Assembly (NCBI GenBank): GCA_021846265.1
Contig: JAJZCF010000001.1
Location: 1 to 38,162, forward strand
Direction: 5' to 3'
Source of the DNA: Actinomycetes bacterium
GTDB taxonomy: Bacteria > Actinomycetota > Acidimicrobiia > Acidimicrobiales > Acidimicrobiaceae
Length of the DNA stretch: 38,162 bases
The translations under genes were made by a program, and so were the position numbers. Under the pieces are notes generated by a model. The model saw only the letters and a program-made list of their open reading frames with translations, did no database searches and was not told the origin of the DNA. Position 1 is the first letter of the stretch. Every line of letters begins with the position of its first letter. Positions 15,086 to 17,402 of the stretch are shown here, in pieces.

Positions 15086-15159
15086 CGGGGAGTGGCGCAG
15101 CTTGGAAGCGTACCTGCTTTGGGAGCAGGGGGCCGCGGGTTCAAATCCCGCCTCCCCGA
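15086..15159 (+). tRNA. tRNA-Pro (TGG)
   Basis: The acceptor stem CGGGGAG/CTCCCCG is perfect. The anticodon stem CCTGC/GCAGG has loop TTTGGGA, which gives anticodon TGG. The T arm GCGGG TTCAAAT CCCGC is canonical and the discriminator is A. CCA is not encoded, unlike the neighbouring tRNA-Gly and the tRNA-Lys. Confidence 0.96.
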
Positions 15160-15178
15160 CGTAGCTGAAGAGCGATCT

Positions 15179-15252
<74 letters not shown>

Positions 15253-15892
15253 AGTGACAGGCTTAGCTAAGGCGGGCCTTGGAAATCTATTAGGGGTTTA
15301 TTTAAAATTGCTGCCCGGTTAGGGTGGGCGGACAGTAATGGGAAACGGCTTAGCCGGCCTATCGATGTATTTATTTCAGCTGCGCTCGAGCATTGCCAAG
15401 GTCGGGACGACCCACTGCAAAGGATTCGTGGAGGGTTCGGAAGACCGGTCAGGGGGTCGGGTGATAGTTCGAATCCCCAGTTTGGGTAGTTTGGCCGGTA
15501 ACGGCTTTTTTGCTTGGTTTACGGCCTCGAATCGAGCCTAGCTTCGGTAATTGGCTCCGAATTGGTGATTTGGGTCTTGAACCGTTCGCTAGTCCCCAAC
15601 GGCTCGCTGGCCAAACGCAGGATTATTAGTGTTTTCCTAGCGGCCACGTAGCGGGAATTACGCGATTGCTCGGCTCAGCTTTCTAAAAGGCGTGGATCGG
15701 ACGAGGATCTCGGTGCAACCTTCACTTAGGAAGCGATCACAGACTTGCCGAATTCATCTTGGCACAAAAGTCTGGCAAAACATTTAGGTTTGTGTCCTGT
15801 TGAGTCTGGGCGAAACTAGCGCAACTGATACTTCGATACTCGGGGGATGGCAATGGTTGGCGAGTGTCGTTGCTCCGACTTGTGACGTTCTT
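15253..15892. other. gene-free region downstream of the tRNA pair
   Basis: About 640 bases with no supported protein gene. It holds a terminator (15494-15511) preceded by roughly 200 bases that include a tRNA-like T-loop word (AGTTCGAATCCCC, near 15467-15479) without matching stems. From 15540 to 15892 I see nothing recognisable. A small RNA ending at the terminator is possible. Confidence 0.35.
15494..15511 (+). terminator. rho-independent terminator
   Basis: GCCG, loop GTAA, CGGC and then six T residues. It probably ends a transcript that begins with the tRNA-Pro/tRNA-Gly genes or a small RNA located after them. Confidence 0.6.
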
Positions 15893-15909
15893 GGTGCCCT
15901 AGGGGGTAT
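15893..15909. promoter_or_regulatory. candidate CsoR/CstR operator upstream of the repressor gene
   Basis: The sequence GGTGCCCTAGGGGGTAT has a perfect CCCTAGGG core and one complete GGGGGTAT half-site. It resembles the ATACCCC...GGGGTAT palindromes bound by CsoR-family repressors. It lies 67 bases upstream of the repressor start, as expected for autoregulation. Confidence 0.5.
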
Positions 15910-15975
15910 CGGTCCGAAAGGCAATTAGAATGTGCTCAAAATACGGGTGCTGGGTATATTTTGGAGGTAGGCAGA

Positions 15976-16341
15976 ATGAAGACTAACCGTGATGCTGCCA
16001 CCGATCACATGGCTGAAGGGGTTATCTTGTCTGACTCGTTGGTAGACGACGGCAAAGTCCGGGACCATAAGTCGCCATTTCAAGGCTCCGACCTCGAAGC
16101 TGTTCAAAAGCGGCTCTCTCGCATCGAAGGACAGATTCGGGGAATCAAAAAGATGATTACGGAGGGGCGAGACTGTAAAGATGTTGTCACTCAGTTCGCT
16201 GCAGTGTCTCATGCGCTTGAACAGGCGGCATTTGGTCTAGTTACTTCTCAGTTGACATACTGCATCGAGTTTCCTCAGGAGGCGAAAGAGGCGGGTTACA
16301 GCGTCGAAGAGGTAAAGAAGCTGCTCAGCAAGCTTAGGTAG
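15976..16341 (+). CDS. CsoR/CstR-family transcriptional repressor
   Basis: The start is ATG 15976, with GGAGG eight bases upstream (an earlier in-frame TTG lies within that site). The 121-residue protein has a 35-residue polar N-terminal tail, then the DUF156 four-helix fold. VQKRLSRIEGQIRGIKKMI is its first helix and hallmark. Cys67 and Cys96 are spaced as in copper CsoR (C-x28-C). Position 92, where CsoR has a His copper ligand, is Gln. Loss of His with both Cys kept argues against Cu(I) sensing and favours persulfide sensing as in CstR. The convergent rhodanese gene agrees with that. It likely autoregulates via the upstream palindrome. Confidence 0.88.
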   Translation: MKTNRDAATDHMAEGVILSDSLVDDGKVRDHKSPFQGSDLEAVQKRLSRIEGQIRGIKKMITEGRDCKDVVTQFAAVSHALEQAAFGLVTSQLTYCIEFPQEAKEAGYSVEEVKKLLSKLR

Positions 16342-16518
16342 CACTCAATGCCGATGCTGAAATCGGAGCCTATGGTTCGTTTTGTTCAGATTGGCCCAAG
16401 TATGTGTTTGCGCTGTTCTAGGCCCGTCAGCGTCTTGTGCGCCGATACAGTTCGCTCTCTTTGGGAAGTTGCCCGGCCAGGCAATTCGAGATTTGTTAAG
16501 ATTTCGGAAGGTGCAAAA

Positions 16519-16869
16519 CTACTGGAGACTTCCTCGACCGCCCGACGCGTCCGTGAGGTGCTTCCCATGGGAGAGCCAGCCTTGAAGGCCACCAGAGAGG
16601 TTGACTGCTTCGACGCCTTGTCCCAACAACATCTCTGTGACGGCATTTGAACGCGCTCCGCTTCGACAAACCACCACGTATTTGTGCTCTTGCACTATCT
16701 TGTGGAACTCCTCCGCGAGTCTGGAGAGGGGAATGTGTAAGGCTCCTTTGATGTGCCCAGCTTGAAACTCGTGGGGCTCTCTGACGTCGAGCAGCCGATA
16801 ACCACGAGATAAATGGTCTTCCACTTCATTTGCGTGGATGGTTGGAGCGCTAGTGGAGTTGTTGAGCAT
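16519..16869 (-). CDS. single-domain rhodanese sulfurtransferase
   Basis: At 116 residues it is one rhodanese domain. LLDVREPHEFQAGHIKGALH is the structural signature and VVVCRSGARSNAV carries the active-site Cys68 in a six-residue loop CRSGARS. It transfers sulfane sulfur between donors such as thiosulfate or low-molecular persulfides and a thiol acceptor. The ATG start has GGAGG seven bases upstream. A near-perfect CsoR-type palindrome overlaps its putative -10 (16937-16942, TATGAT on the minus strand). This suggests repression by the neighbouring CsoR/CstR protein and induction by persulfide. Confidence 0.9.
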   Translation of the reverse strand: MLNNSTSAPTIHANEVEDHLSRGYRLLDVREPHEFQAGHIKGALHIPLSRLAEEFHKIVQEHKYVVVCRSGARSNAVTEMLLGQGVEAVNLSGGLQGWLSHGKHLTDASGGRGSLQ

Positions 16870-16939
16870 CCGTTATCCTCCGTTAAATATAAGAAATACG
16901 ATAAATCCATCGATATCGATCAAACTATTAGTAATGATC

Positions 16940-16955
16940 ATACCATATAGGGTAT
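16940..16955. promoter_or_regulatory. candidate CsoR/CstR operator of the rhodanese gene
   Basis: ATACCATATAGGGTAT is palindromic except for one base pair and has the ATACC...GGGTAT half-sites of CsoR-family operators. It overlaps TATGAT (16942-16937, minus strand), a likely -10 for the rhodanese gene. The leader from there to the ATG is about 60 bases. Between 16956 and 17208 I see no other gene or clear site. Confidence 0.55.
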
Positions 16956-17208
16956 AAAGGACCTACCGTTTTTTAAATTTGCTTTTGAGGCCGCAACCAT
17001 GCGTCGGTTATGGGGGCATAACAGAACTCTTTATGACTTTCGAGGTGTTTTGAAGTGACTTGTGGGTCAATTTTGAGTACTGGTCGCCAACCCAGCTTGA
17101 AATCGAGCCACCATCATCGCTACTGATCTACAGGGTCACTTTCTACTTTGTCCGTGAGAATTATGATTTAAAGAGGTGTTTTGCCTAGGCGACTGCTGGG
17201 TGTGTTAA

Positions 17209-17388
17209 ATGCAAAACCAAACTGGAGAATCCGCGGTTTTTTGTGATGGTTTTTCCACTCCTTGTCGGGTCCGGCTGATCTATTCCGCTCGTGAGTCGAA
17301 GGTGATCTTCTGGCGACCAGGAGAGATTATTAAGGTTAACTCTGCTGAAAAGGAACTCTTCGGCTCAAGGATGCACTTTGCTCTGTAA
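17209..17388 (+). CDS. 59-residue small protein upstream of trigger factor
   Basis: ATG 17209 opens a 59-residue frame beginning MQNQTGESAVFCDGFSTPCR and ending FGSRMHFAL. The centre (RVRLIYSARESKVIFWRPGE) alternates hydrophobic and charged residues like beta-strands, and two Cys lie eight apart. It has no signal peptide. The stop is 14 bases before the trigger-factor ATG, which lacks its own ribosome site, so translation of the two may be coupled. No strong Shine-Dalgarno is present (GGG about 8 bases upstream). I do not recognise the family. The codon pattern and residue mix look genuine. Confidence 0.5.
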   Translation: MQNQTGESAVFCDGFSTPCRVRLIYSARESKVIFWRPGEIIKVNSAEKELFGSRMHFAL

Positions 17389-17402
17389 GCTTGTTGATCG
17401 CT

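Follow-up and report, generated by a model that had tools for sequence, protein, structure and literature searches.

The repressor gene and its surroundings

The window, the whole 38,162-nucleotide stretch of DNA that was analysed, is contig C157 of a 2.4 Mb genome that is 81% complete. The following features are considered below.

15086..15252, forward strand: tRNA-Pro and tRNA-Gly, upstream of the repressor gene (context only)
15894..15909, no strand: predicted operator site 1, GTGCCCTAGGGGGTAT, located 66 bp ahead of the repressor start, its left half degenerate
15941..15957, no strand: possible auxiliary half-sites, ATACGGGTGCTGGGTAT, with spacing one base longer and one mismatch, near the ribosome-binding site; a weak candidate
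15976..16341, forward strand: CsoR-family (PF02583) repressor, 121 aa, with Cys67 and Cys96 as its dithiol, Gln92 where Cu(I) sensors have the ligand His, and an N-terminal extension of ca. 40 residues
16519..16869, reverse strand: single-domain rhodanese of 116 aa with the active loop CRSGARS (PF00581, 4e-19); its gene converges on that of the repressor
16940..16955, no strand: predicted operator site 2, ATACCATATAGGGTAT, a perfect ATACC-N6-GGTAT that overlaps the -10-like TATGAT of the rhodanese gene

The repressor gene starts at ATG15976, with a GGAGG ribosome-binding site 8 nt upstream, and its product is matched by the PF02583 profile over the whole domain (1.1e-23; 83.9 bits, cut-off 22.8). 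The cysteines lie at CsoR spacing (C67-x28-C96) and do not vary among 13 aligned relatives or at any locus of the 145-locus comparison described below. Residue 92 is a Gln that aligns with the His of GtCsoR (4m1p, Geobacillus CsoR) and InrS (5fmn) and with an Asn of 7mq1, the best sequence match to the repressor among PDB structures; 7mq1 was deposited under the name csoR, and we take it to be pneumococcal CstR. Both the cysteine spacing and the Gln at the position of the Cu(I) ligand had been claimed in a preliminary description of this DNA, and are borne out by the ORF translation and the alignments, none of which places another His at the ligand position. The first Cys is preceded by Asp66, where copper sensors carry Tyr. 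At the His position, the window protein and a close relative have Q, the sister genus has E, most relatives have G and staphylococcal CstR has N; H is confined to copper-type proteins.

Among named records, the closest is a MAG carrying the label Acidimicrobiaceae (JABEUM010000002), whose protein is 94% identical to the repressor; this genome, which also supplies the close relative with Q, is referred to as G148. The identities RcnR and FrmR were dropped because the NCBIfam scores (32.5 versus a cut-off of 138 bits, and 25.9 versus 133 bits, respectively) are far under the equivalog cut-offs. The N-terminal extension (window 15976-16090) is matched in the sister genus in length, not in sequence, and most relatives from the order begin ca. 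five residues before the domain.

The convergent gene is a rhodanese with a CRSGARS loop, as had been described, and is confirmed by its ORF and the PF00581 match. Persulfide dioxygenase, TauE and SQR genes were looked for among the window ORFs and none was found; a TauE protein is encoded elsewhere in the same genome. The order tRNA-Pro, tRNA-Gly, repressor, trigger factor (window 15086-17391) is kept in the sister genus (L056), which has no rhodanese gene between the repressor and the trigger factor.

Predicted operator sites and candidate target genes

Perfect ATACC-N6-GGTAT occurs once in the window, at site 2, versus 0.03 occurrences expected by shuffling. Site 2 is found upstream of the rhodanese gene, 71 bp from its ATG, and the last three bases of the site, TAT, are shared with a -10-like TATGAT on the minus strand, which was assigned by eye; a sigma-70 consensus scan found no promoter at the repressor or the rhodanese gene. 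In G148, the 16-mer of site 2 is unchanged while the adjacent bases differ, the -10-like element being TATACT. A palindrome overlapping a probable -10 upstream of the rhodanese gene, as originally proposed, is thus both perfect and conserved.

The matching palindrome proposed upstream of the repressor gene (15893-15909) fared less well, and is better written as 15894-15909. The right half of site 1 fits the motif, while its left half is GTGCC instead of ATACC (two mismatches). Two-mismatch matches are common in the window (12 seen versus 8.5 expected), and the bare pattern therefore gives site 1 no support. However, when 35 operators from relatives and reference loci were used to build a weight matrix, site 2 scored highest of the 38147 positions in the window, followed by site 1. 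The site is also conserved in G148, where it reads GTGCCCTACGGGGTAT, with one change, in the centre; since the DNA downstream of it is conserved as well, this is weaker evidence than the conservation of site 2. A sister-genus genome (G032) carries a perfect operator copy, ATACCTGGTAGGGTAT, upstream of the orthologous repressor gene. If TAGAAT (15926-15931) is the -10 element, the corresponding -35 region would coincide in part with site 1. Because site 1 is degenerate, autoregulation of the repressor is uncertain.

Exact palindromes were found at four places in the genome, two of which are one locus. This number is not above random expectation, and the argument therefore rests on position and conservation. 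A genome-wide count of one-mismatch sites was uninformative (60 versus 51 for the reversed pattern) and was set aside, as were an exact place in contig C17 and sites in contig C101 (one of them in carB), which resemble chance matches or coding sequence. The remaining meaningful exact sites precede a DUF302 gene that is followed by a CMD/AhpD-like gene. In addition, a one-mismatch site, ATACTCTATAGGGTAT, lies before an Rv2466c-like (PF22234) nitroreductase gene and is unchanged in G148, where the predicted target sites besides site 2 are also conserved. The DUF302 and AhpD-like (CMD) pair and the Rv2466c-like nitroreductase gene are therefore probable further targets in this genome, as judged from site position and conservation. 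An exact operator is near the gene in 4 of 30 DUF302 loci in general, so DUF302 is not always under control of this motif. The DUF302/CMD site is present on two redundant contigs, L018 (G000:C78) and L019 (G000:C172:1-3500), that are 96.7% identical over 3.5 kb and carry DUF302, CMD and ATP-grasp-like genes and an acyl-CoA dehydrogenase-like end; they represent either strain variants or a duplication. A one-mismatch site in contig C162 precedes an MFS transporter gene.

In other genomes of the family, exact sites precede a thioredoxin gene in four cases (L284, L290, L295 and L297); no clear ortholog of this thioredoxin was found in the 81%-complete assembly studied here. Exact sites are also at or near genes for CoA-disulfide-reductase/rhodanese fusions (L288, L291), an MBL-fold/rhodanese (persulfide-dioxygenase-like) protein (L287) and FAD proteins (L292, L298) that may be sulfide:quinone oxidoreductases, a name that we infer. 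This set of candidate targets would fit sulfide and persulfide stress, and the regulon appears larger than the two genes considered in the preliminary description. In L299:1672-3166 (G082:C45), from a member of the family, an exact operator is located ca. 50 bp before the gene for subunit I of cytochrome bd, a sulfide-tolerant oxidase. In L284:1571-3560 (G148:C104), the exact operator mentioned above lies between the thioredoxin gene and a divergent gene for a beta-eliminating lyase (PF01212, tryptophanase/tyrosine phenol-lyase type), possibly a sulfide-releasing enzyme.

Comparison with CsoR-family loci and characterised regulators

To place the repressor within its family, 145 CsoR-family loci were compared, drawn from relatives in the order, from named genomes (80 loci) and from plasmids (five loci). 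Both cysteines without the His were found at 123 loci; the residue replacing the His is G in most of them and otherwise E, Q, N, S, T or Y, and the first Cys nearly always follows D or E. The remaining 22 loci have Cys-His-Cys, and in every one of them the first Cys follows a Tyr. One or more exact operators were present at 87 of the 123 His-less loci versus none of the 22 His-bearing ones (Fisher 1e-10), a rhodanese domain at 64 versus 1 (Fisher 1e-5) and DUF302 at 33 versus 0 (Fisher 0.004); these p-values are a guide only, because the loci are related by descent, the two samples may overlap in some genomes, and a His-less alignment was used to find the 80 named-genome loci. One locus, L107, which had been chosen as a presumed copper control, turned out to be His-less, with an operator and a rhodanese. 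The residue argument of the preliminary description stands in part: absence of the Cu(I) His is diagnostic, while Gln itself is not.

In a tree, the window repressor falls in a His-less actinobacterial branch together with proteins of Streptomyces, Mycobacterium and Nocardia, and this branch is split from the His-bearing proteins at 96/96. Staphylococcus CstR is on a very long branch (3.36) outside the window's branch, beside a divergent copper paralog, so that it is at best a possible strict ortholog of the window repressor.

Several members of the family are characterised. In S. coelicolor, ScCsoR binds the promoters of a persulfide dioxygenase gene, its own gene and a rhodanese gene at ATACCn6GGTAT, and is released from DNA by polysulfide; both Cys are required, and Cys37 alone is persulfidated (PMC7533328). 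E. faecalis CstR controls the rhodaneses RhdA and RhdB and a CoA-persulfide reductase, CoAPR (PMC9405070), and B. licheniformis YrkD senses sulfane sulfur (PMC9918477). The window repressor resembles ScCsoR in its C-x28-C dithiol, ATACC-N6-GGTAT operator and candidate rhodanese target, a likeness that is drawn through Streptomyces homologs in the same His-less branch, through gene context and through the published description. It differs from the Streptomyces homologs in having Q rather than G and an N-terminal extension, and its locus, unlike that of ScCsoR, has no adjacent persulfide dioxygenase or TauE gene and a rhodanese gene that is convergent rather than divergent. Persulfide dioxygenase or TauE genes in the cluster are common, not universal, among such loci, E. 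faecalis CstR being an exception (PMC9405070). The CstR proteins of Staphylococcus, Enterococcus and pneumococcus likewise have both Cys and no His, sulfurtransferase targets and the same operator motif between cstA and cstR, but identity to the window repressor is ca. 33%, Staphylococcus CstR did not join its branch in the tree, and cstA, cstB and tauE are absent from the window. On these comparisons, the nearest characterised relative is judged to be ScCsoR rather than Staphylococcus CstR, which corrects our first reading. Among the plasmid loci, two exact operators lie in the interval from cstA to cstR of the staphylococcal cst locus. A Streptomyces clavifer plasmid with a single exact operator is laid out in a similar way, with rhodaneses, TauE, an MBL-fold hydrolase and DUF302 among its annotations.

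A candidate sulfane-sulfur switch and the alternatives to it

The family of the repressor, its two cysteines, the loss of the His, the operator motifs with their conservation, the gene linkage and the copper-type paralog considered below were computed directly. We consider it likely, with a probability of roughly 0.88, that the repressor is a sulfane-sulfur (persulfide/polysulfide) sensor of the ScCsoR/CstR type that acts on the rhodanese gene and partner genes. The persulfide switch suggested at the outset is supported by the lack of a His at the ligand position in any alignment, by an operator of the ScCsoR type (PMC7533328) and by a linkage to rhodanese and operator that holds throughout the branch and is missing in His-bearing paralogs. 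Points that count against it are the lack of persulfide dioxygenase, TauE and SQR genes next to the repressor gene, the degeneracy of site 1, the chance-level number of exact palindromes in the genome, the place of Staphylococcus CstR in the tree and the missing rhodanese gene at the sister-genus locus.

DNA binding, chemistry and direction of regulation we infer as follows. The reduced repressor would bind ATACC-N6-GGTAT operators overlapping the promoters of the rhodanese gene and of the distant DUF302 and CMD pair, probably also at the Rv2466c-like gene and, more weakly, at its own gene; at site 2 it would block the rhodanese promoter by covering the -10 element. Upon build-up of persulfide or polysulfide, Cys67 would become persulfidated and/or form a di- to tetrasulfide bridge to Cys96' of a neighbouring subunit, the sequence being compatible with either chemistry. 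The modified repressor would leave the DNA, the rhodanese and partner proteins would be made, and these would move sulfane sulfur on until the repressor thiols were reduced again. Gln92 is unlikely to be the cause of specificity, because His loss, and not Gln, is common to the branch.

CsoR and RicR, the Cu(I) sensors, share the PF02583 fold and both cysteines with the window repressor. It could accordingly be a Cu(I)-sensing CsoR that uses variant ligands to control copper genes and lies next to a rhodanese gene by coincidence; its PF02583 membership is compatible with this, and its top NCBIfam score is to the copper repressor RicR, though at 58 versus a cut-off of 175 bits. The RicR score does not discriminate, however, since staphylococcal CstR scores about equally on the same model (56 bits). 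Unlike the Cu(I) sensors, the repressor has neither the His ligand nor a Tyr before the first Cys, which is replaced by Asp; none of the 22 His-bearing loci, all with this Tyr, has an ATACC-N6-GGTAT operator, and there is no copper gene near the repressor. One other PF02583 gene was found in the genome (contig C166). In its product, a Tyr precedes the first Cys and the ligand position is occupied by His, and the C166 gene is followed by a gene for an 839-residue P-type ATPase of the copper type with two GMTCASC domains. Copper sensing thus has a candidate gene of its own, and on residues, gene context and the separate paralog, copper sensing by the window repressor was rejected as very improbable.

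The same cysteines might instead serve a general thiol-oxidation switch (disulfide/peroxide or reactive electrophile), with persulfide as one of several inducers, which we regard as improbable. The Sox regulator TTHA1953 of Thermus thermophilus provides a precedent: it is CsoR-like and cysteine-controlled, has sulfur gene targets and loses DNA binding on disulfide formation, not with NaHS (PMC10318464). It differs from the window repressor in its operator (TACNNTACNNNNGTANNGTA), its distant regulon and the absence of a reported NaHS response. The predicted targets do include thiol-redox proteins (thioredoxin in related genomes, the Rv2466c-like protein and the AhpD-like CMD protein), but the persistent partners across the branch are proteins of sulfur transfer or oxidation, namely rhodanese, CoA-disulfide-reductase/rhodanese fusions and MBL-fold plus rhodanese, and sulfane sulfur acts both on ScCsoR, which by gene context belongs to the same branch (PMC7533328), and on YrkD (PMC9918477). 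That the repressor and rhodanese genes are unrelated neighbours and the palindromes chance occurrences would agree with the frequency of two-mismatch matches in the window, with the small excess of one-mismatch sites over the reversed pattern in the genome and with the missing rhodanese in the sister genus. Against this, the two top-scoring motif positions of the 38 kb lie on either side of this very gene pair, site 2 is unchanged in G148, and both rhodanese linkage and operator are enriched across the 123 His-less loci; the probability of mere coincidence is close to nil.

A sulfane-sulfur sensor at this locus would extend a characterised sulfur switch to the Acidimicrobiia. The type of switch is already known; what is added here is the candidate regulon, some of whose genes had no earlier link to such a switch, in particular DUF302, CMD and the Rv2466c-like protein. 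More tentatively, and at somewhat less than even odds, the repressor may head a wider persulfide regulon in Acidimicrobiaceae and other actinobacteria that includes DUF302, the AhpD-like CMD protein, an Rv2466c-like mycothiol-dependent nitroreductase and a dedicated thioredoxin. In the literature searched, no link between Rv2466c and persulfide was found, and two papers mentioned DUF302 together with persulfide, once each. If the wider regulon is real, DUF302 and CMD would serve to clear persulfide or to relay sulfur, and the Rv2466c-like protein would reduce mycothiol persulfide. The comparison also yields a sequence rule for sulfur sensors (two Cys without the His, a first Cys that follows Asp or Glu, and ATACC-N6-GGTAT nearby), which would separate them from copper sensors, both being now annotated as 'metal-sensitive transcriptional regulator', and the DUF302 and CMD proteins would gain a testable physiological setting.
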